Source: a virus
Virus record (IMG/VR): IMGVR_UViG_3300046373_000123
Location: 1-40,463 of that record
DNA length: 40,463 nucleotides
Strand: one strand, 5' to 3'
A program made the translations under genes and the position numbers. Positions 1 through 40,463 of this stretch are shown here, piece by piece. Under the pieces are notes generated by a model. The model ran no database searches. It had not been told where the DNA came from and worked only from the letters and a program-made list of their open reading frames with translations. Each line of letters begins with the position of its first letter. Position 1 is the stretch's first letter.

Positions 1-263
1 ACCGCTCCACGCTGACTGGCGGCGACGACTCCACGCTGACTGGCGGCGACCGCTCCACGCTGACTGGCGGCGACCGCTCCACGCTGACTGGCGGCTACCG
101 CTCCACGCTGACTGGCGGCTACCGCTCCACGCTGACTGGCGGCGACCGCTCCACGATGACTGGCGGCGATCGCTCCACGCTGACTGGCGGCGACGACTCC
201 ACGCTGACTGGCGGCGACGACTCCACGCTGACTGGCGGCGACCGCTCCACGCTGACTGGCGGC
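1..263 (+). repeat. 24-bp tandem repeat array (left part)
   Basis: Continuation of the coding 24-bp repeat. Bases 1-119 are the same DNA as 40345-40463; the new units after base 120 are YR, DR (with an ATG codon), DR, DD, DD, DR. With about 14 near-identical units on the joined circle, read length and k-mer size could easily have collapsed or misordered copies. Confidence 0.95.
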
Positions 264-404
264 GAGAAGGCAGAGCTGCGCGTGCGCAAATGGTGCGGAA
301 ATACTGACCGGTATCGCACCTACAACGCTTATGTTGGCGAGGATGGCATCGAGCCCTATGTTGCCTACCGCCTGGACGATAACAACAAATTCGTCAAAGT
401 CTAA
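1..404 (+). CDS. DUF7666-like protein with ice-nucleation-type octapeptide repeats (C-terminal part, continues from 39882)
   Basis: This is the 3' part of the gene that starts at 39882; the window is cut inside it. After removing the 119-base overlap, the joined protein is 288 residues. This part carries repeat units of the form GG(D/Y)(R/D)STLT up to base 263, then a non-repetitive 46-residue C-terminal cap with a GEDGIEPYVAYRL segment, ending at a TAA. The repeat is 24 bp, so every unit stays in frame. One unit has ATG for CTG (STMTGG), otherwise the variation is almost confined to the two codons after GG. The unit resembles the AGYGSTLT octapeptide of bacterial ice-nucleation proteins. Function is unknown; position in the PL operon suggests early expression. 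The copy number seen is only what the assembly could resolve. Confidence 0.85.
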   Translation, partial: RSTLTGGDDSTLTGGDRSTLTGGDRSTLTGGYRSTLTGGYRSTLTGGDRSTMTGGDRSTLTGGDDSTLTGGDDSTLTGGDRSTLTGGEKAELRVRKWCGNTDRYRTYNAYVGEDGIEPYVAYRLDDNNKFVKV

Positions 405-3171: not shown

Positions 3172-3225
3172 ATCTCACTCAATAACCCGAACTCACACGC
3201 CGCCTGCATGGCGGGGAGAACCGTC

Positions 3226-3969
3226 ATGTCTGCACAAAACCAAGGCGTTGTACCGTTGAAACCGAAAAGCCTTTCCGCCCGCATGGCCGAGCGCTTCGGC
3301 GTTGACCCTGGCGAGATGCTGGCAACCCTCAAAGCCACCGCGTTCAAAGGAAACGTGACCGACGCGCAGATGCAAGCGCTGATGATTGTCGCCGATCAGT
3401 ACGGCCTGAACCCGTGGACGAAAGAGATCTACGCCTTCCCGGACAAGGGCGGAATCGTCCCAGTCGTAGGTGTTGACGGCTGGGCGCGGATCATCAACGA
3501 AAACCCGGCATTCGATGGCATGGAGTTCTCCATGGACAAGGACGGCACCGAGTGCACCTGCAAGATCTACCGGAAGGACCGTGGCCATGCCATCAGCGCT
3601 ACCGAGTACATGGCCGAATGCAAGCGCGGAACGCAGCCGTGGCAGTCGCACCCGCGCCGTATGCTGCGCCACAAAGCCATGATCCAGTGCGCGCGTCTGG
3701 CGTTCGGTTTCGCCGGCATCTACGACCAAGACGAGGCCGAGCGGATCGTCACCAATGATGCCACAGTGGCTTCTGCCGACTCGGCGCCGGCCCTTGAAGC
3801 CATCCGTAACGCCCAGTCGATGGAAGAGCTGCAAGCGGCGTTCACGGCGGCGTGGAAAGATCTTCCAACAGAGCGCGCCGCACTCACCAAGGCCAAGGAC
3901 GACCGCAAGAAGGAATTGTCCGAGCCGGTGGAGGCTGAATTCGAGGAAGTGGCAGATGACCAGAAATGA
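3226..3969 (+). CDS. bet: Bet/RecT-family single-strand annealing recombinase (247 aa)
   Basis: Phage recombination protein Bet anneals complementary single strands after exonuclease resection. The family signature is clear: TDAQMQALMIVADQYGLNPW, then KEIYAFPDKGGIVPVVGVDGW, and WQSHPRRMLRHKAMIQCARL. Length fits (lambda Bet is about 260 residues). ATG 3226 is preceded by GGGGAGAACCGTC; an in-frame ATG at 3208 has a poorer site. The C-terminus (about 185-247) is acidic and low-complexity, as often seen. It is separated from its partner exonuclease by an HNH gene that overlaps its end by 14 bases. Confidence 0.93.
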   Translation: MSAQNQGVVPLKPKSLSARMAERFGVDPGEMLATLKATAFKGNVTDAQMQALMIVADQYGLNPWTKEIYAFPDKGGIVPVVGVDGWARIINENPAFDGMEFSMDKDGTECTCKIYRKDRGHAISATEYMAECKRGTQPWQSHPRRMLRHKAMIQCARLAFGFAGIYDQDEAERIVTNDATVASADSAPALEAIRNAQSMEELQAAFTAAWKDLPTERAALTKAKDDRKKELSEPVEAEFEEVADDQK

Positions 3970-7051: not shown

Positions 7052-7137
7052 CCACCTACACCTACTGCCTTATCGCCCTGGCCTGCTCCGGCTGGCCGCA
7101 GCTTATTCAATGGGTTATTGAAAAATGGATGATGTGA
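7048..7137 (+). CDS. Tiny hydrophobic peptide (29 aa)
   Basis: ATG 7048 and TGA 7135-7137 give 29 residues (YTYCLIALACSGWPQLIQWV in the middle). It starts in ATGA overlap with the previous gene and overlaps the next by 13 bases. Size and coupling suggest a membrane peptide or a translational leader; evidence is positional only. Confidence 0.4.
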   Translation: MTTYTYCLIALACSGWPQLIQWVIEKWMM

Positions 7138-7565
7138 AATTACTGCCGTGCCCGTTCTGCGGCGAGCTGCCGACAATAACCAAGCATTTCAAGCACGAGA
7201 TATACAGCTTCGTGCATCGGTGCTCTGTCATTGGCCCTATCACCCGTGACTTTCGTGAGCGGGAGCAGGATCACGCCGATATGTGGAACACTCGCTGCGC
7301 TTCCGACCTCGACGCCCAACGCCTACGCGCCGATACGGCTGAGGCTGAAGTGACTCGGCTCGAAGATGAGTTCGATACGTTGGAAAGTACGAACACAACC
7401 ATGAAATTGAAACTTGCCGCCGCCGAGCAGCGCATTGCGGAGCTTTTGCAGATCTGCCGAGATATTCAGGACGATCCGCGTCTTTGGCTCATGGTCGGCG
7501 CAGAAATTTCAGGCCGCATCAGCACCGCCCTCAACCCCAAACCCGAGGCAGGAAGTCATGAGTGA
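7125..7565 (+). CDS. Lar-like zinc-ribbon protein with coiled-coil extension (146 aa)
   Basis: The N-terminus KLLPCPFCGELP, a later His/Cys (VHRCSV) and the DMWNTRCA ending match the Lar restriction-alleviation family, small proteins that modulate host type I restriction in the Rac prophage. Here the Lar-like part (1-65) is followed by a coiled coil (about 65-110, RLEDEFDTLESTNTTMKLKL) and a short C-terminal domain common to phage proteins. Anti-restriction activity is inferred from the family; many Lar-like phage proteins are untested. Confidence 0.72.
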   Translation: MDDVKLLPCPFCGELPTITKHFKHEIYSFVHRCSVIGPITRDFREREQDHADMWNTRCASDLDAQRLRADTAEAEVTRLEDEFDTLESTNTTMKLKLAAAEQRIAELLQICRDIQDDPRLWLMVGAEISGRISTALNPKPEAGSHE

Positions 7566-12003: not shown

Positions 12004-12045
12004 ATGATTCTCCTGTACAATCGCGCGCAAAATTGAGGGATGCTC

Positions 12046-13179
12046 ATGTTGAATTCAATGGATCGAACCGGCGCGATACCAGCATTGACTGGCGTGCGCT
12101 TCTTCGCCGCGCTCATGGTGTTCTTTTCACACTATGTGGTACCTGGATCGAGCGGCTTCCTGCTGACAGTCCAAAACTCAGGTTATGCGGGAGTTACATT
12201 CTTTTTCATTTTATCGGGTTTCATTCTTGCCTATAACTACCTTGAAAAGTTTGAGAAAAATCCGACATCGCAAATAGGCGCCTTTTATTTTGCGCGGTTC
12301 TCTCGCGTCTATCCACTGTATGCATTTATGCTGCTTTACTTCTGGCTTATCCTGCCAGCAGACAAAAGCGTTGTTCCGCATATATTTGCAATACAAGCAT
12401 GGTATGACGATTTATTTATGGCGATGGGGTACAACACAGTTTCCTGGAGCATCAGTGTTGAAGCATTTCTATATTTGATGTTCCCGCTGATTATTCCGAT
12501 TCTAACTCTATTGGGAATCACGGCTTCAGCGAAGAGGCTTATCGCTTTGATGATCATTCTAGCTGCAACGGCTTTCGCGATTGCCTTCTATTTCTGGGCG
12601 ACCGGGAAAGGCGCTCTGATGCCAGCAGAGCCGAGTTCGGCGCACCGGTGGCTGTACCGAACGCCGTTGTCACGGCTGATAGACTTCACCATCGGCATCT
12701 GTGCTGCGATCTACTACATGCGCTTTTGGAAGGACACGCAAAGAAGCTCAAGCACCTGGACCGTCATCACCCTTGTCTCAATCGCCGGGCTCATTGTGAT
12801 CATGGGCAGCGAAACAGTCTTTTACTCTCCGTTTAGCTGGGATGCCGCCTACATTATCCCATTCACGCTCATTATCTTCGGTGTTGCGGCAGTGCAATCC
12901 AGCGCTGTGAGTCGGTTCCTTTCGACGCCCTCAATGATATTGCTCGGCGAGGCTTCTTTCGCGTTTTACCTGATCCACCTGATCATGAAAACCATGAAGC
13001 TGCTAAGGCCTGACGCAAGCATGTTGGAAGCCCTCATTATGCAGGCCGTCATGCTGACGATAGTGGTCTGCACCTCTATTGGTCTGCATCTCGTGATCGA
13101 AAAGCCAGCGCAGAACTTCCTGAGATCGGCCTTTCGTTCGCGAGCCAACGCTTATGTTGGGGTTGGCAGAAAGCCTTGA
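12046..13179 (+). CDS. Acyltransferase 3-family membrane protein, likely O-antigen modifying (377 aa)
   Basis: A multi-pass membrane acyltransferase. The family opening is clear (IPALTGVRFFAALMVFFSHY, catalytic-type His in FSHY), then VTFFFILSGFILAY, FYFARFSRVYPLY (R-x-R-YPLY), and WSISVEAFLYLMFP. About ten membrane helices. Phage members O-acetylate host lipopolysaccharide and change serotype, blocking superinfection. ATG 12046 is spaced six bases from GAGGG. It is on the opposite strand from the late genes and AT-rich (47 G+C in 12181-12300), so it is a moron acquired by transfer. Its own promoter is probable: TACAAT at 12016-12021, with no clear -35. Confidence 0.9.
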   Translation: MLNSMDRTGAIPALTGVRFFAALMVFFSHYVVPGSSGFLLTVQNSGYAGVTFFFILSGFILAYNYLEKFEKNPTSQIGAFYFARFSRVYPLYAFMLLYFWLILPADKSVVPHIFAIQAWYDDLFMAMGYNTVSWSISVEAFLYLMFPLIIPILTLLGITASAKRLIALMIILAATAFAIAFYFWATGKGALMPAEPSSAHRWLYRTPLSRLIDFTIGICAAIYYMRFWKDTQRSSSTWTVITLVSIAGLIVIMGSETVFYSPFSWDAAYIIPFTLIIFGVAAVQSSAVSRFLSTPSMILLGEASFAFYLIHLIMKTMKLLRPDASMLEALIMQAVMLTIVVCTSIGLHLVIEKPAQNFLRSAFRSRANAYVGVGRKP

Positions 13180-28499: not shown

Positions 28500-29759
28500 T
28501 TATGCGTTGTTGAGCTTGCGATAGTTGAGCTGGCCGCCCCACTCGTCGTTGCTGAGCTGATCAGCGACAACGGCGAGGTAGCGCATCACGTCGGCGCCAT
28601 GGCTGTACTCGTCGTGCAGCGGCTGGCCCGGTTCGTTTGTCTGTTGGTTGATCTGCCGGCGGTAGCGCTTCAGGCACTCCACGAGGCGAGCCGTGCGCTC
28701 ACGGTTGAAGTAGGCGCGGGGGAAGACCTCGCGAACCCGGTTGATGCCCTGCTCGACATGCATGTTCGGCACGGGCATAACAGTCCACCCAAGCTGACCC
28801 ATTACCTCGGCGTCTGACTTACCGCTCTGGTGGCGCTTGGAGTACCCGTCGTGGGGCAGGTATACGTTGCCCCAGTTCATTGGCTGCCCATCAAGCTGCA
28901 AGCCCTTCAGCTCGGCGCTGTACTCGGCCAGCGTGCGATGATGGCCTTCGATGTAGTGGATGATGCGAATCTCGCCGGCCATCTTCTGGGCCAGGATGAT
29001 CGTCATCGCATCGTTCCAGCCAAGGTCGAAGATGACGTGCGTCTTCAGCAACCCATCGTGCGGCACGTTGGCAATGCGCGACTCGGCCTGACTCATCTGC
29101 TCGAAGTAGATGGCGCCTTCGACTGCCGGCATGCACTTGCCTTCCCAGATGTGGGCGTAGGTTTCAGGCTTCATGGTCGCCTTGGCGTGCAAGCGCTCTT
29201 GCTCCAGCACCGCCGGGAACCATGGGTTGTCGTTGTAGTTCATCAGCACTGACACGCAGTCGGGCGGAGGCTTGGTCACGAAGCGCTCGTGCGTCTCGTC
29301 AGACTCAAGCTGAGGGTTGTAGGTGACCCAGATCTCGGAGTTCGGCTTGCGGATCGTGGGGAGCAATACATCCCAGCTCTTCTTGACGACAGCGTGCGCT
29401 TCTTCAATCCAGACGATGTCGACGCCCTCGTAGGACTTGATCGAATCGACTGTATGCTGCTGCAGACCGGCGAAACTGAACTCAGTCCCGTTCTTGCCCT
29501 TGATGTAGGCCTGCTGAACCTCGTAGAAGGCACCCAGCTTGAGGCTGGCGATTTGATCGGCCAGAAGCTTGTGTACCGAGTCAGCAATACTCTTCTGTAT
29601 CTCACGAGTGCACAGGATGCGCATCGGCTTCTGCGCGCCCTGGATCAGCAGCGAACGTGCGAAGCTCCACGACTTGCCACTCCCGCGCCCGCCGTACGCC
29701 ACCTTGTACCGGTGCGGCTCGAACAGGAATGCGAGCTTGTCGGGGAACTCAATTGCCAT
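28500..29759 (-). CDS. terL: Terminase large subunit (419 aa)
   Basis: DNA packaging motor. Walker A GGRGSGKSWSFARSLL, Walker B VDIVWIEEAH, coupling TYNPQ; nuclease domain with DLGWNDAMTIILAQ, LPHDGYSKRHQSGKSD and HGADVMRYLA as likely RNase H-fold acidic residues. PBSX/Terminase_3-type length. It overlaps the small subunit by 11 bases. Confidence 0.95.
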   Translation of the reverse strand: MAIEFPDKLAFLFEPHRYKVAYGGRGSGKSWSFARSLLIQGAQKPMRILCTREIQKSIADSVHKLLADQIASLKLGAFYEVQQAYIKGKNGTEFSFAGLQQHTVDSIKSYEGVDIVWIEEAHAVVKKSWDVLLPTIRKPNSEIWVTYNPQLESDETHERFVTKPPPDCVSVLMNYNDNPWFPAVLEQERLHAKATMKPETYAHIWEGKCMPAVEGAIYFEQMSQAESRIANVPHDGLLKTHVIFDLGWNDAMTIILAQKMAGEIRIIHYIEGHHRTLAEYSAELKGLQLDGQPMNWGNVYLPHDGYSKRHQSGKSDAEVMGQLGWTVMPVPNMHVEQGINRVREVFPRAYFNRERTARLVECLKRYRRQINQQTNEPGQPLHDEYSHGADVMRYLAVVADQLSNDEWGGQLNYRKLNNA

Positions 29760-35519: not shown

Positions 35520-36312
35520 TGGGAAGCTCCTTCTTAAGCGCAGCAATCGCGGCCCGGACTTGGCGTTTGCGCAGGTATGTGTCGACCCGTTTGGCTTGGG
35601 CCTGCTTGAGTTTTTCGCGGTCTTGGCGAGCCTTGGCGGCGGTGACGATAGAGCGGACTTCGGCGAGCTTTTCGCGCAACTTAGGCGATGGCTGGACGAC
35701 CTTCCCGGTTATCAGCCCGGCGATTGCTTGGCCGTCGCTGGTGATCGGAGCGATGCGCAGGTCTGACAGGTATTGAGCGCCAGCCTGCTGGCTGATGAGC
35801 TGCATCCGAACCGCCGACTCAATGGCGGTTACTCGACGATCAGGATCAAACCCGAGGGATACGCTCCACGTAGCTGGCAGAGCTTCAGACCGGGCAATGG
35901 TCACCAGACGCTCGTAGGCACTCATGAACGCCATGCGCGCGCCGATCTTGTCACCTTGATCGAGTATCGGCTGAGCAGCCTTCATGGCCTGAAGGATCTC
36001 AGCAGTCATGACGACCGTTGCGCTCTCGTCGCTGGCTTCCAGTGCGATCGACCACGCCTCATCCTTGCCTGGGCGGCCATCAGCGGCCTGGATGCGCTGA
36101 AGAATCGCAGCCAAAGTAAGCTTGCCAGTCAGCTCTCTGCGGCAAGCCTTGAGCGATGATCCGATAACATCAGCCGGATAGTCGGCAAGGTCGTCAGCCA
36201 TCATCTCAGCCGCGTCAGTGGTGATTGTCTGACCGAGAACTTCGGCTGTCGCCGCTATAGCCAAAGCAAGGCGTGCAATTTGGTCAGTGCTCATGCGGTC
36301 AGAGGAATTCAT
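35512..36312 (-). CDS. Replication-region protein, possible helicase-loader partner of O (266 aa)
   Basis: Helical protein after the O-like gene, with DGRPGKDEAWSIALEASDES and LADYPADVIGSSLKACRREL as conserved phrases, and a basic coiled C-terminus (AKARQDREKLKQAQAKRVDT). No ATPase motifs. Position equals that of lambda P, so helicase loading is possible, but identity is uncertain. Confidence 0.6.
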   Translation of the reverse strand: MNSSDRMSTDQIARLALAIAATAEVLGQTITTDAAEMMADDLADYPADVIGSSLKACRRELTGKLTLAAILQRIQAADGRPGKDEAWSIALEASDESATVVMTAEILQAMKAAQPILDQGDKIGARMAFMSAYERLVTIARSEALPATWSVSLGFDPDRRVTAIESAVRMQLISQQAGAQYLSDLRIAPITSDGQAIAGLITGKVVQPSPKLREKLAEVRSIVTAAKARQDREKLKQAQAKRVDTYLRKRQVRAAIAALKKELPNV

Positions 36313-37255
36313 TTTCCCTCCTCCCTTCGCGGCTCATGATCCGCTGAGCGGCTTCTTGCCCGGCCTGCAAATTCGCCTGCTTGCGTTCAATCTGCTGGGC
36401 AGTTGTGGCGTTCATCTGGCGGTTGGTAACCCACTGGGTACGATACGACTCGGCCTTGGCTAGTAGGGAGCCTAGGTCGTGGCAATTGCGGATCAGGTAG
36501 GAGTCGTTGATGCCAACGTAGAATTCGGCAACTACGGCAGCTTCTGAGCCGAGACGCTTCCAGAGATCAACCACGTTCCGGTTTACCTTGGCATTGCGGA
36601 CTGGAGCGGCTTGGTAGCGCGACTGGTATGCGGCGGAGTAGGAAGACCAGATTTCACGGCAAGCTTCTTGGCGATCCGCCTCTGCAGCATCGATCTTTTT
36701 CGCGGCGCGCTTCGGCGAAGCTGGAGCGAGCACCAATGTCGTAGTCTCTGCTGTAGTCTTCTGTGTAATCTCTGTAATAGTTGTGCCGTTAGGGTCGCAC
36801 TTGTCATGCTCTTCCGGCAGGACTTGTTGTGCCGCATCGGTAGAACCAGTTGTGCCCTTTGGGCAGGACTTGTTGTGCTCTTTGGGCAGGACTGGGATTG
36901 CCTTTTCGCCCGACAGATAGCCCAGTAGAAGCTCGGTATCTATCCGAAAATGCATCTTGGCAGGAACGCCCTTGCGTACCTCGGCCAAAAGCTGAATCTG
37001 AGCAAGGCAGCGGCGAGCTGTACGAACTTCTTTGTTCGATAGGCCGATCTCCTCCTCCCATTCCAACTCGGTCTTGTAGAACCAGCCGTCGTTGGTCTTC
37101 TCAGTCCAGTAGACAGCTTGGGACAGAAACTGAGCCACCGAAGCGCTCAGGCCCAATACGCGCCTGAATGCCGGATACACGGCAACGGCGCTTCCGGCTA
37201 ACTCAGTGAGTTGCATCCTCAATCGACCTTTGCTTATCGCATGTAGTGCTGCCAT
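36299..37255 (-). CDS. O-like replication initiation protein (318 aa)
   Basis: N-terminal winged helix of phage replication proteins (LSASVAQFLSQAVYWTEKTN, WFYKTELEWEEEIGLSNKEV, RTARRCLAQIQLL). C-terminal about 130 residues are helical and basic. An origin is likely within the gene, but I see no clean iterons; only the KEHN.SCPKGTT-type coding repeats at 36775-36900 (three similar PEEH/PKEH phrases). Start ATG 37255; ATG 37216 (MQLTEL) is also possible. Confidence 0.75.
   Translation of the reverse strand: MAALHAISKGRLRMQLTELAGSAVAVYPAFRRVLGLSASVAQFLSQAVYWTEKTNDGWFYKTELEWEEEIGLSNKEVRTARRCLAQIQLLAEVRKGVPAKMHFRIDTELLLGYLSGEKAIPVLPKEHNKSCPKGTTGSTDAAQQVLPEEHDKCDPNGTTITEITQKTTAETTTLVLAPASPKRAAKKIDAAEADRQEACREIWSSYSAAYQSRYQAAPVRNAKVNRNVVDLWKRLGSEAAVVAEFYVGINDSYLIRNCHDLGSLLAKAESYRTQWVTNRQMNATTAQQIERKQANLQAGQEAAQRIMSREGRRENEFL
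36780..36900. repeat. Imperfect direct repeats inside the O-like gene, origin candidate
   Basis: Three similar stretches (each with TTGTTGTGC or CAGTTGTGCC and GGCAGGACT) recur at about 36779, 36819-36831, 36847-36876, encoding LPKEHNKSC, CPKGTTGS and LPEEHDKC-type phrases. Lambda and relatives carry origin iterons at the same place in O. Confidence 0.5.
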
Positions 37256-37780: not shown

Positions 37781-37814
37781 GGGTGTTTCTCCTTTGTGGC
37801 TGTGGAATGGTTAT

Positions 37815-38021
37815 TCAGGCTGCGGATTTTTTGGCTGGCGCTTGCGAGGGAAAGGGCCGAACTTCTTCGGCGGTATAACTGCCGTCTGGGTGCTGAGTGA
37901 CGTAGATGTCACGGCCAAGGCGGATTGCCTTGCTGAGGCCACCTTGAGTCAGGTCGAGCAGGCGAGCTGCTTCGGTCTGGCCCTTCTCCTGGGCGAACTG
38001 CGCGATGTGGATACGGGTCAT
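37815..38021 (-). CDS. cro: Cro-like repressor (68 aa)
   Basis: Cro binds the same operators as CI and favours lytic growth. FAQEKGQTEAARLLDLTQGG followed by LSKAIRLGRDIYVTQHPDG is the lambda-Cro-type helix-turn-helix and beta hairpin. Start ATG 38021 has GGAG seven bases ahead and lies about 23 bases from the PR start; an ATG at 38033 leaves only about 11. Confidence 0.87.
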   Translation of the reverse strand: MTRIHIAQFAQEKGQTEAARLLDLTQGGLSKAIRLGRDIYVTQHPDGSYTAEEVRPFPSQAPAKKSAA

Positions 38022-38050
38022 GGCTGACTCCATGGTTGTACATGGCTCAG

Positions 38051-38079
38051 ATATTACCTATGGCATTTACGAAACACAA
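38051..38079 (-). promoter_or_regulatory. PR promoter
   Basis: On the - strand -35 TTGTGT (38074-38079), 17-base spacer, -10 TAATAT (38051-38056), pointing at cro. Both elements are covered by operator sites. Confidence 0.75.
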
Positions 38080-38116
38080 TACCTATGGCATTTGCGGCAT
38101 TAATACCGGCAGGAAT
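38053..38116. promoter_or_regulatory. Operator region OR (two good sites and one degenerate)
   Basis: ATTACCTATGGCATT (38053-38067), AATACCTATGGCATT (38078-38092), spaced 25 bp, and a degenerate AATACCGGCAGGAAT (38102-38116) 24 bp on. Half-sites are AWTACC/GGYATT with a 3-bp centre. The third site covers the cI ribosome site. Same motif as OL. Confidence 0.75.
38066..38094 (+). promoter_or_regulatory. PRM candidate
   Basis: Weak + strand pair TTTACG (38066-38071) and CATTTG (38089-38094), spacer 17, expected start near 38101, about 20 bases from the cI start. Weak as maintenance promoters are; placement fits activation by repressor at the 38053 site. Confidence 0.35.
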
Positions 38117-38121
38117 AAGCT

Positions 38122-38904
38122 TTGGACATGAGCAAAAAACCACTACCCCCAGACAGGAAGGAAGAGTGTCTTCGCTTGAAGGCGATCTTTAATTCCAGGA
38201 AGTCTGACTTGGGCCTGACCCAAGAGAAATTGGCGCATGCTCTTGAGATGAATCAGAGTTCTGTCAGCCACTACCTAAACGGCGTAAACCCTCTTAACAC
38301 GAGCGTTGCAGCAGCTTTCGCACGCCTGCTAGGCGTTGAGGTCGCCGACTTCAGTACGCGCCTCGCCACCGAAATAGCCAACTTGACGACGGGCGGTACT
38401 GATCTACGTCATGAAATGTCGAACGCCATGTTATTCGGCCCGGTAGAAGTGTGGGACGATGAGACTCCGCTCGATGATGATGAGGTCTCTGTGCCATTCC
38501 TCAAGGAAGTAGAGTTATCAGCCGGAAGTGGTAGGACAGCAGTACAGGAATCGTCGAACAGGAAGTTGAGATTTGGGAAAATCAGCCTAAGGAATCAAGG
38601 CGTAGACCCCAACAGCGCGAAGTGCGTGACCGTCACCGGGAACAGCATGGAGCCAGTATTGCGTAATGGAACTACGGTAGCGATCGACACTGCCAATGTG
38701 CGGATCATCGATGGCGACATGTATGCCATAGACCACGCCGGCCAACTGCGCGTAAAACAAATATATAGAATGCCAGGTGGAGGAATGAGATTGCGAAGCT
38801 TCAACCGAGATGAGCACCCAGATGAGGAATACACCGCACAGCAGATCCGCGATCAGGATCTTGTCGTGCTAGGCCGCGTGTTTTGGTCTGGTGGATTTCA
38901 CTGA
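38122..38904 (+). CDS. cI: CI repressor, S24/LexA-type self-cleaving (260 aa)
   Basis: N-terminal HTH (LGLTQEKLAHALEMNQSSVS, YLNGVNPLNTSVAAAFARLL), middle linker with an Ala-Gly in ELSAGSGR as the likely cleavage site, and a C-terminal S24 peptidase domain with Ser in TVTGNSMEPVLRNG and Lys in QLRVKQIYR. Thus inducible by RecA. A TTG at 38122 is spaced seven bases from AGGA; the first ATG is at 38128 with 13-base spacing, two codons in. Divergent from cro. Confidence 0.93.
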   Translation: MDMSKKPLPPDRKEECLRLKAIFNSRKSDLGLTQEKLAHALEMNQSSVSHYLNGVNPLNTSVAAAFARLLGVEVADFSTRLATEIANLTTGGTDLRHEMSNAMLFGPVEVWDDETPLDDDEVSVPFLKEVELSAGSGRTAVQESSNRKLRFGKISLRNQGVDPNSAKCVTVTGNSMEPVLRNGTTVAIDTANVRIIDGDMYAIDHAGQLRVKQIYRMPGGGMRLRSFNRDEHPDEEYTAQQIRDQDLVVLGRVFWSGGFH

Positions 38905-38921
38905 CCGCAAGGAGGCTGCGA

Positions 38922-39164
38922 ATGAGCAAGGTTCCGTGGGCGGCAGTCGCTGCTCTTCTTATTGGCGTTATGGTGGGCCGTATGACGGCGCCGGGCGATC
39001 CGAACAGTTCTCCAACCTATGGCGACACTGGTCTACCAAAAAACTGCAGGGCCGTTGTCCAATCCAGTATTGATGCATGGCAGCTCAAGCAGTATTCAGC
39101 CGACGATATTTTTGCCTCGCTCAGCCGTAACTGCGGCGCCAACGGGTATTCATGGGGCAAGTGA
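38922..39164 (+). CDS. Membrane-anchored protein cotranscribed with cI (80 aa)
   Basis: ATG 38922 follows AAGGAGGCTGCG, 17 bases after cI. N-terminal membrane anchor (residues 5-21, PWAAVAALLIGVMVGRM), then a periplasmic-looking domain with two Cys (LPKNCRAVVQSSIDAWQLKQ, SLSRNCGANG). Followed by a terminator, so it forms a two-gene lysogenic operon. Expression in lysogens suggests superinfection exclusion or host modification; unproven. Confidence 0.72.
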   Translation: MSKVPWAAVAALLIGVMVGRMTAPGDPNSSPTYGDTGLPKNCRAVVQSSIDAWQLKQYSADDIFASLSRNCGANGYSWGK

Positions 39165-39195
39165 TTCCGTGATGTAGATCAAAGTCGTATTGAAT

Positions 39196-39219
39196 AGCCC
39201 GCCGATGTGCGGGCTTTTT
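39196..39219 (+). terminator. Intrinsic terminator of the repressor operon
   Basis: AGCCCGC (39196-39202), loop CGATGT, GCGGGCT (39209-39215), T run to 39219. Confidence 0.87.
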
Positions 39220-39238
39220 CTCGCCTTCGAAAAATAAT

Positions 39239-39278
39239 ATTGCCATCGGTATTGACGAGTAATAATGCCAGTGGTAAT
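39239..39278. promoter_or_regulatory. Operator region OL (two sites)
   Basis: ATTGCCATCGGTATT (39239-39253) and AATGCCAGTGGTAAT (39264-39278), 25 bp apart, same motif and spacing as OR. They overlap PL. Confidence 0.75.
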
Positions 39279-39280
39279 TT
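39252..39280 (+). promoter_or_regulatory. PL promoter
   Basis: -35 TTGACG (39252-39257), 17-base spacer, -10 TAATTT (39275-39280), covered by the OL sites. It reads into the + strand early operon through the cut of the circle. Confidence 0.75.
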
Positions 39281-39532
39281 TAATTCCAAGCCGAACGAAA
39301 CACCGGCCCGCAACAAGGCAGCGATGAACCGGCCTCAACGGTTCAGAGGGTTGGCAACTGACCCGGGTGTGCAGCGTAAAGCACCGTAATCAGTTTTCTG
39401 GCGGACAGGGTCGCGGCTGGAAGAACAATCTGAGATTCAAGCCGGTGGCCAGCCAGTAGCGGGTCACGGAAAACAGATTTCCTCGATGCGCTTGGCAACA
39501 GGCGCATCAGGGAAATCAAACAGGAGCAGCAC
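39281..39532 (+). other. PL leader, no clear gene
   Basis: 252 bases between PL and the first well-supported gene. A 21-codon frame (MNRPQRFRG start, 39324) is present but weak. I did not find a clean boxA/boxB antitermination signal. Confidence 0.4.
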
Positions 39533-39700
39533 ATGAAAATCGTTATCTGGCTTGGAATTGTTGTTTGGTTGCTGGCGTCGTGGGTCACGCATCTTGTTGT
39601 CTGCTTCAAGGCGGCAAGCTGGGGCTTTCTGATTGCCGGCGCGATCTTCTTCCCAGTGGCTGTAGTGCACGGCACAGGGGCATGGTTCGGCGCCTGGTAA
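39533..39700 (+). CDS. First PL gene: two-helix membrane protein (55 aa)
   Basis: ATG 39533 follows CAGGAGCAGCAC. Two hydrophobic segments (IVIWLGIVVWLLASWVTHLV and FLIAGAIFFPVAVVHG) flank FKAASWG. Small PL-proximal membrane proteins can protect the cell from other phages or act on division; role here unknown. Confidence 0.65.
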   Translation: MKIVIWLGIVVWLLASWVTHLVVCFKAASWGFLIAGAIFFPVAVVHGTGAWFGAW

Positions 39701-39826
39701 GCATCACTTCTGCGCATTCCCAGAGTGCGCAGCGGGATGCGGAAGACCAGCAACCTCCGCGCAACGCGGCCCCTGCATCACCTCTGATGGCCTCCTGCTG
39801 TTTCAGGATCGCCATCTGTCTTTACA

Positions 39827-39853
39827 AATGCCTCTCAAACCCCGGGAGGCATT
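39827..39853. repeat. Perfect inverted repeat before the DUF7666-like gene
   Basis: AATGCCTC (39827-39834) and GAGGCATT (39846-39853), 11-base loop rich in C and G. No T run follows, so not a typical terminator; may form an RNA hairpin upstream of the ribosome site. The rest of 39701-39881 holds no convincing gene. Confidence 0.6.
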
Positions 39854-39881
39854 CGAAAGCCAAACCGACAAGGAAACCCCA

Positions 39882-40463
39882 ATGAAAACTCCAAAGCCGG
39901 AAACGGCATTGATTCTGCGCACCTGCAATGCCGACTTGACCAGCCATGGCGGTTTTCAATGGCCCAGCGAGATCGGCGCCGTGGTTACCGCTCCAGACTG
40001 GCGCGATGACGACGAATGCGGTCATGGACTGCACGGATGGTTGTTCGGCCAGGGCGATTCCAGCGCAAGCAACAGCATCGGCAAGCCAAATGCAAAATGG
40101 CTTGTTGTCGAGGCCCTGATCAGCGACCTGAAATCGCTCGGCGGGAAAGTGAAATTCCCAACCTGTACCGTTCGCCACATCGGCGACAAACATAGCGCTA
40201 CCCAGTTTCTGCTGGAGAACGAACCTCGCGCCGCAAGCGTTGCTGTGATCGGTGTCACGCTGACTGGCGGCGACGACTCCACGCTGACTGGCGGCGACGA
40301 CTCCACGCTGACTGGCGGCGACGACTCCACGCTGACTGGCGGCGACCGCTCCACGCTGACTGGCGGCGACGACTCCACGCTGACTGGCGGCGACCGCTCC
40401 ACGCTGACTGGCGGCGACCGCTCCACGCTGACTGGCGGCTACCGCTCCACGCTGACTGGCGGC
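39882..40463 (+). CDS. DUF7666-like protein with ice-nucleation-type octapeptide repeats (N-terminal part, continues at base 1)
   Basis: Residues 1-125 form a globular domain with a Cys/His/Gly patch (ECGHGLHGW, about 45-53), recalled from phage proteins labelled DUF7666. From residue 126 to 242 the joined protein has one partial and 14 full copies of an 8-residue unit, GG(D/Y)(R/D)STLT. The second variable position is Arg or Asp; the first is Asp, with two consecutive Tyr. Each unit offers a T-L-T triplet, the TxT pattern of beta-solenoid antifreeze and ice-nucleation proteins. Start ATG follows AAGGAAACCCCA. It is the second clear gene after PL. Repeats are near identical at DNA level, a sign of recent expansion or homogenisation. 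A beta-solenoid fold is inferred; ice binding is only one possible role. Confidence 0.85.
   Translation, partial: MKTPKPETALILRTCNADLTSHGGFQWPSEIGAVVTAPDWRDDDECGHGLHGWLFGQGDSSASNSIGKPNAKWLVVEALISDLKSLGGKVKFPTCTVRHIGDKHSATQFLLENEPRAASVAVIGVTLTGGDDSTLTGGDDSTLTGGDDSTLTGGDRSTLTGGDDSTLTGGDRSTLTGGDRSTLTGGYRSTLTGG
40257..40463 (+). repeat. 24-bp tandem repeat array (right part)
   Basis: Tandem copies of a 24-bp unit (ACGCTGACTGGCGGCGACSR-type, then CTCC) fill this stretch after codon 125 of the gene. In order the variable dipeptides are DD, DD, DD, DR, DD, DR, DR, YR. The last 119 bases equal bases 1-119 of the window. The array continues at the window start. Confidence 0.97.

Follow-up and report, generated by a model that had tools for sequence, protein, structure and literature searches.

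A phage DUF7666 protein with a hypervariable octapeptide ladder that resembles ice-nucleation repeats

Introduction

Bordetella phages carry a 24-bp element that occurs in 9-20 repeats depending on the isolate, as described in the consulted part of PMC2884959, which is also the sole mention of bbp36 that we found in the literature. A related gene, the subject of this study, opens with an ATG at position 39882 of IMG/VR virus record IMGVR_UViG_3300046373_000123 (40,463 nucleotides, analysed over its whole length and called the window below), and encodes a DUF7666 head, a ladder of GGxxSTLT octapeptides, and a C-terminal cap. Our literature search found no published mention of DUF7666, and PHROGs gives no function for the family concerned, PHROG 18079, one member of which carries the label 'ice nucleation protein' that is probably misleading.

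The octapeptides recall those of bacterial ice-nucleation proteins (INPs) such as InaZ and the Pseudomonas borealis INP (PbINP). According to the consulted sections of PMC9418140, PbINP requires 13-15 coils of 16 residues, and a version with 12 coils freezes near buffer (-38.3 versus -38.7 C). The consulted text of PMC10727499 gives as INP hallmarks a Tyr ladder at coil position 3 and a C-terminal R-coil block. A preliminary description of the window, made from the letters alone, had pointed out this likeness; the observation is real and the feature was well read. New here are a quantitative account of hypervariability at residues 3 and 4 of the unit, an ADP-ribosyltransferase (ART)-like head with a possible connection to rIIB, and a case against ice.

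Results

Architecture and family

The frame opened at 39882 leaves the right window end still open. Tandem Repeats Finder reports the 24-bp array at 40256-40463 (8.7 copies, 96% matches) and again at 1-265 (11.0 copies, 94% matches), and positions 1-119 equal 40345-40463 with 0 mismatches. Because the last 119 bases equal the first 119 (119 being a common assembler k-mer), the contig is probably circular, 40344 bases in length, with its ends within the array, rather than linear. When the ends are joined at the overlap, a single open frame of 288 residues results, with 14 full units and the cap; owing to the overlap, some of the ten units at the left end are the right-end units again. Residues 3-4 of the 14 joined units are DD (six), DR (six), and YR (two). 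The 14 full units of the preliminary description hold for the joined frame if the overlap is genuine, whereas 39882-40463 contains only 8, and the cap that it placed after the ladder is indeed found at 258-401 in the joined frame. Its statement that every unit has TLT applies to 13 of the 14, since one unit has TMT. As the overlap sits inside a tandem repeat, 14 units could be an assembly minimum and the true number may be larger. A contig end also cuts 21 of the 68 open reading frames (ORFs) read, mostly inside or just before the array (L014, L017, L018, L022, L025, L034, L035, and L058 are among them); since contig ends commonly fall there, assemblies tend to break at the array and hide the gene.

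The right-hand window part (E=2e-76) and the left-hand part (E=8.9e-29) both match PHROG 18079, to which Bordetella phage Bbp36 belongs, over head and repeats. The Pfam match to DUF7666, at 33.4 bits for a cut-off of 27, bears out the DUF7666-like head of the preliminary description. Judged by its sequence, the window protein is a member of an already known phage family, composed of head, octapeptide ladder, and cap. A tblastn search of phage records with the head returned 8 records, with Mica and BPP-1 each present twice: Pseudomonas phage D14O (70.7% identity), Burkholderia phage Mica (53.8%), and the Bordetella phages BPP-1, BMP-1, BIP-1, and vB_BbrP_003 (50.8%). These named relatives infect P. 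aeruginosa, Burkholderia, and Bordetella.

Bbp36 of BPP-1, BMP-1, and BIP-1 has in common with the window protein the DUF7666 head (52% identical in BPP-1, alignment A1), the cap, and the 24-bp octapeptide array, in which a constant core is accompanied by a variable part of 5-6 bp that codes residues 3-4. The BPP-1 gene also lies near cI. The unit itself differs, being AGxxGTAT in Bbp36 and GGxxSTLT in the window. Canonical units number 13 in BPP-1, 19 in both BMP-1 and BIP-1, and 6 in vB_BbrP_003. The BPP-1 Bbp36 record carries an annotated 'variable region 2' (VR2), and BPP-1 has a diversity-generating retroelement elsewhere in its genome. The reverse transcriptase domain PF00078 was not found in the window phage (one record searched), for which reason retroelement mutagenesis was rejected there. 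Mica gp52 belongs to the same family and has the same architecture, with the difference that it has three canonical units of the GTAT type; its label 'ice nucleation protein' rests on a BLAST match to a Pantoea ananas protein.

Profile searches yielded 57 viral and 11 bacterial loci, from which four copies (L012, L013, L053, and L055, of L006, L007, L004, and L003, respectively) and two fragments (L057, L068) were removed ahead of the counts below. The bacterial loci include Tahibacter, Gluconacetobacter, Acinetobacter, Chitinophaga, and Hymenobacter (2 of the 11). DUF7666 was matched in 8 of 10 host genomes searched, and a sample of 369 genomes of one class gave seven matches to phrog_18079, two of them strong, both in genomes already known. 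Homologues with other unit numbers, for which the preliminary description had proposed a search, were found: in the 40 complete ORFs that contain canonical units, the ladder is 1-33 units long (the value for L019 being unreliable because of Ns), and complete ORFs free of gaps may have only 1-4 (L033, L043, L029, L048, L072). Three complete ORFs without canonical units (L074, L076, L077) are excluded from this count. The preliminary description had also named replacement of the repeat in homologues as a point against its view, and part of the family does show it, as some distant relatives have nonapeptides free of TxT. These DUF7666-like proteins (L008, L063, L064, L067, L076, and L077) have units of the types GASSATGxx, SSGxxSTAA, and GHASATGxx, and several of them likewise show two variable residues per unit.

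Two hypervariable residues in a nearly frozen framework

Arrays were compared across 71 sources, 52 of which contain at least 3 canonical units (614 units); the 19 with fewer were not counted. Within the 24-base unit, nucleotides 7, 10, and 11 are variable in 47, 46, and 41 of the 52 arrays, and any base outside codons 3-4 is variable in at most 3. The unit pattern fixes the framework amino acids, so that only the silent-site result is independent of this choice. The framework codons are fourfold degenerate except one ATG, and their fourfold third positions are polymorphic in 6 of 312 cases, compared with 142 of 208 for the first and second positions of codons 3-4. Taking one array per distinct core, the figures are 6 of 126 and 61 of 84 (Fisher p ~2e-26, uncorrected for relatedness).

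In nearly all arrays the repeats share an identical core of 18-19 bp. From lineage to lineage this core varies at the DNA level, 20 or 21 cores (depending on the core definition) encoding two hexapeptides. Because the cores differ between lineages while the peptide stays constant, selection seems to act on the protein, with recombination keeping the DNA of each array uniform. The diresidue set YR/ES/NY is likewise written with different codons in Bordetella phages and in Tahibacter.

In the GTAT branch the variable residues are mostly Y plus a basic residue, any residue plus an aromatic one, or any residue plus S/E/D; all three classes are present in 23 of the 37 GTAT arrays with at least 6 units, and not in the other 14. 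The STLT branch, which includes the window, has a different repertoire (DD, DR, YR, YG, NR, DG), and Y plus a basic residue occurs in 2 of the 90 units of its seven arrays. A three-letter alphabet for all arrays was rejected on these grounds. In GTAT arrays, Y at residue 3 is followed by K/R at residue 4 in 177 units against 100.9 expected (sd 4.9), an excess inflated by related arrays. The order of the units is indistinguishable from shuffled at lags 1-8 (41 runs, |z|<=1.4), and both a 16-residue alternation and a local unit order were rejected.

We assembled 46 pairs of complete ORFs whose heads are at least 98.5% identical over 255 bases (31 pairs at 100%); 11 pairs involve the N-containing L019 or L041, leaving 35 gap-free pairs. 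In none of the 35 is the sequence after the head identical. At least 3 canonical units are present in both arrays of 28 pairs (18 distinct sequences); unit counts agree in 2 of these pairs, and the series of units agrees in none. Charge differs as well, the variable residues having a net value of -10 in the window, +9 in BPP-1, +11 in BMP-1, and -6 in BIP-1; this change of sign between sister phages speaks against the conserved charge-patterned scaffold considered in the preliminary description.

Predicted structure of the rod and its cap

A homologue with a head 94% identical to that of the window (L007) was modelled with AlphaFold2 and 24 relatives, giving a predicted local distance difference test (pLDDT) value of 95.1. 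This model shows regular three-residue strands on TLT, one per octapeptide, in line with the beta-solenoid guessed in the preliminary description. The ladder is predicted to form a beta-solenoid and to be rigid; each coil would presumably comprise two octapeptides, by analogy with ice-nucleation proteins, and the pattern suggests that the threonines would point outward and the central residue inward. Matches of the whole model in the PDB are mixed beta-helices, up to Z 8.2. A trimeric needle of the T4 gp5 type was rejected, its matches being weak (Gp5_C E=0.063, phrog_430 E=0.0039).

The cap type of the window protein is common to Bbp36, phage EL gp100, and phage U10, and weakly to E. coli YdhT. 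Phage EL gp100 (L090:2105-3088) and phage U10 (L091:2099-2665) have repeats and cap with no DUF7666 head in Pfam, so that the rod-cap module seems to be mobile. In E. coli K-12, ydhT (L080:6748-7560) has degenerate octapeptide-like repeats and a similar cap. YdhT and EL gp100 both differ from the window protein in having no DUF7666 row in Pfam and in their repeats, which are degenerate and not homogenised. NCBIfam NF007410 matches some phage proteins weakly, far under its cut-off.

The head, ADP-ribosyltransferases and rIIB

The window head, modelled alone with 38 sequences, reaches a pLDDT of 93.9. VIA-align, run on the 949 best chains from Foldseek, listed 12 entries with Z 3.5-4.7 over 75-89 residues (TreTu, Tpt1, PARP16, TreX, Arr, and a CNFy domain), all 12 of which we take to have an ART-type fold. 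The model indicates that the head likely has an ART-like fold. It differs from the ADP-ribosyltransferase superfamily in the absence of a conserved acid where the catalytic Glu is expected (none between positions 86 and 101 in 38 sequences), which makes ADP-ribosylation activity doubtful.

A second similarity leads to rIIB. When the whole model was compared with the BFVD viral library, 9 of the 50 rows listed were named rIIB or equivalent (E 1e-3 to 2e-2); from the 101-126 aligned columns and the lack of repeats in T4 rIIB, we infer that the head is the part that matches. A local hhalign comparison of the head with a profile of 8 rIIB proteins, five of them partial, gave E=1.5e-4 and a probability of 51.9 over 52 columns. 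The score was 30.7, whereas none of 100 column-shuffled decoys exceeded 20.3 and the reversed profile yielded no match. This alignment, with the C-terminal domain of T4 rIIB, pairs a C-x-x-G-L-H motif of the head with the same motif in rIIB. Basic residues are conserved on both sides: the head family has R/K at position 13 in 38 of 38 sequences, H51 in 37, and both K89 and K91 in 38, and H257, K295, and R297 are present in all 8 rIIB proteins. A basic residue of the first strand, R13 in the window and K215 in T4 rIIB, is R or K throughout, its pairing being made by eye only. T4 rIIB itself matches five RIIB PHROGs and helix-turn-helix (HTH) models, and, unlike the window protein, has an HTH-like region at its N terminus and a sequence free of solenoid repeats; the window protein, for its part, matches no RIIB PHROG at E<=10. 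A kinship of the head with rIIB is plausible from these profile comparisons. An ART fold for rIIB was not found in a non-exhaustive literature search that included the consulted parts of PMC7824862 and PMC9391042.

Genomic context

A cI-type repressor gene lies upstream of the gene (Table 1). A pair of operator-like dyads sits directly after a terminator-like hairpin upstream of the gene, and a matching pair with the same spacing lies upstream of cI. A search pattern derived from the left pair (39239, 39264) occurs 6 times in the window, with one site scored on both strands, for 3.65 expected by chance, so that only the clustering and equal spacing of the dyads are convincing. Together with the terminator and the Bet- and Lar-like neighbours, cI and these dyads suggest that the operon is probably early, as the preliminary description had proposed, and repressed in the lysogen.

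Two other features of the window were noted. Five 23-bp repeats (GTTGTGCCCTTTGGGCAGGACTT, 68% matches) at 36780-36893 lie inside a replication O-like gene on the minus strand (36299-37252) and look like origin iterons. An O-antigen acetylase-like gene at 12040-13176 (phrog_3333, phrog_6705) is likely a lysogenic conversion gene.

Table 1 Features of the gene and its surroundings in window coordinates
Feature	Position	Strand	Basis
DUF7666 N-terminal domain, 125 aa; predicted ADP-ribosyltransferase-like fold, profile similarity to T4 rIIB C-terminal domain	39882..40256	+	sequence, Pfam, profile, model
24-bp array, first part, 8 full GG[DY][DR]STLT units up to window end	40257..40463	+	
Array continuation, 10 full units; 120-257 is new sequence past the 119-base overlap	1..257	+	
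C-terminal cap (GGEKAELRVRKWCGNTDRYRTYNAYVGEDGIEPYVAYRLDDNNKFVKV) and stop	258..404 (cap 258-401)	+	
cI-type repressor gene, upstream; start codon uncertain	38122..38904	+	phrog_4 E=4e-49
Terminator-like hairpin between cI side and early operon	39196..39215	+	
Left-operator-like pair of dyads before the gene, spaced 25 bp (39239-39253, 39264-39278)	39239..39278		
Right-operator-like pair of dyads before cI, spaced 25 bp (38053-38067, 38078-38092), matching the left pair	38053..38092		
Bet/RecT-like annealing protein, downstream, same strand if record circular; possible recombination source	3208..3969	+	phrog_252 E=1.4e-90
Lar-like restriction alleviation protein, downstream, same strand if record circular	7125..7565	+	phrog_599 E=3e-9
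Terminase gene	28503-29759		

Discussion

As the rod differs even between close relatives, a fast-changing binding rod is more likely than an ice-maker. We tentatively favour an early accessory protein that serves counter-defence or host takeover and whose binding rod is hypervariable, a role suggested by the probable early expression, the neighbouring genes, the reported non-essentiality of bbp36, and the pattern of diversification. The head, predicted to be ART-like and related to rIIB, would bind a nucleotide-like or anionic ligand through the conserved basic residues R13, H51, K89, and K91. The solenoid would serve as the binding arm, with a fixed framework and two variable residues displayed on each rung that could contact a partner. 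Recombination between the identical cores, perhaps driven by the phage's own Bet-like recombinase, would alter the number and order of the rungs. The protein might then act just after induction or infection, and its rod would change to follow a variable host target or to escape recognition. A more daring version, which we consider unlikely, is a modular recognition code without a retroelement, in which each rung is a two-residue 'letter' from a small set, letters and length being reshuffled by core recombination. With its rIIB-like ART-fold head, such a phage protein would have its counterparts in TALE diresidues or lamprey VLRs, and would target variable host factors or evade host sensors.

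Several observations weigh against a counter-defence or takeover protein of this kind. Concerning the head, a Foldseek search of the PDB gave nothing significant (best E=0.16, TreTu), and the ART matches of VIA-align are weak. The BFVD matches to RIIB have modest E values and come without a query range in the table, and the hhalign match vanishes in global mode (probability 1.6 and 0.2). The K-x-K of the head (K89/K91) pairs with K-x-R of rIIB only at a lowered alignment threshold, Pfam DUF7666 is found in none of the 8 RIIB proteins (five partial), and rIIB is read as a transcription factor in the consulted part of PMC7824862. Concerning the role, bbp36 is non-essential in BMP-1 and the variation of its array has no apparent tie to host tropism, both according to the consulted text of PMC2884959, citing Liu 2004. 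No sigma-70-type promoter was found in 37800-40200, and PADLOC, which covers defence and not counter-defence, gave no match for the 4 proteins tested. Repeat turnover alone could also yield the variation in length, though not easily the excess of replacement over silent changes.

The rod could instead be no more than a passive spacer or a stalk for assembly, with neutral repeat turnover behind its variation and the function residing in the head. The wide range of array lengths, the apparently random unit order, and the non-essentiality of bbp36 are all consistent with such a stalk. Nevertheless, we consider it doubtful, given that replacement variation is limited to codons 3-4 while the silent framework is nearly invariant, that some diresidues recur with different codons across lineages, and that Y is paired with K/R in GTAT arrays above expectation, even if related arrays inflate the latter figure.

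Weak profile matches to tail spike repeats could indicate an adhesin-like surface protein of lysogenic conversion or a virion part. This is quite improbable: operator-like dyads near cI precede the gene, Bet and Lar genes follow it, the terminase gene is located elsewhere, and no signal peptide is evident by eye in the first 25 residues of the product. Still less probable is that the acidic rod mimics DNA in the manner of the pentapeptide-repeat protein MfpA and blocks a DNA-binding host enzyme. This idea fits the net negative charge of the window ladder and an alignment of 138 residues with MfpA by VIA (Z 6.2), but a Z under 8 may merely reflect a common arrangement, and mimicry by charge is unlikely because the ladder charge flips sign among sister phages.

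Ice nucleation or ice binding, with threonine ladders of the solenoid templating water, appears very improbable. The likeness to INPs stressed by the preliminary description exists: the window protein shares with InaZ and PbINP (PF00818) half-repeats of eight residues with STLT, a predicted solenoid fold with one TLT strand per unit (in L007), and a C-terminal cap. The homologue L059 matches PF00818 at 32.6 for a cut-off of 27, and the paper on Mica calls the homologue of that phage an ice nucleation protein. By sequence, the ice recrystallisation inhibition protein 3ult is the top PDB match (E=0.0009), and among the Pfam rows for the left part the grass antifreeze family PF21300 ranks first, although its 18.4 bits miss the cut-off of 30. 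Two of the 11 bacterial loci come from Hymenobacter, a genus with at least one Antarctic species, so that some relatives may occupy a cold niche. However, neither window part is matched at E<=10 by PF00818, the hidden Markov model of the ice-nucleation repeat. The 14 octapeptides, if the joined count is right, make up about 7 coils, far from the 65 of PbINP and below the 13-15 that it needs. Tyr is present in 2 of 14 units and forms no fixed ladder, all 14 units keep T-x-T, leaving no distinct R-coil block, and the random unit order gives no 16-residue alternation. Gap-free complete ORFs with 1-4 units and the hosts of the named phages also speak against ice, and the DUF7666 head and the early phage gene set the protein apart from INPs. 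Water templating, one of the proposals of the preliminary description, is thus not borne out, with PF00818, coil number, Tyr ladder, and R-coils all failing. A similarity of fold to the ice-nucleation solenoid is likely, whereas membership of the INP family and an ice-nucleation function are, on the sequence, unlikely. That L059 passes PF00818 shows the surface resemblance to be genuine and a potential source of misannotation.

Finally, an incidentally translated DNA element (iterons, packaging or recombination site), with which the identical cores within nearly all arrays would agree, is scarcely credible, because core DNA changes synonymously between lineages while the two hexapeptides are kept, and the frame is open through the arrays of the ORFs read.

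The arrays display a clear pattern of hypervariability in a phage that lacks a reverse transcriptase: the silent framework is nearly frozen and two codons per unit are free. If it is true that the head and the C-terminal domain of rIIB share an origin, this would provide a testable structural lead for the classic, poorly explained rII exclusion phenotype.
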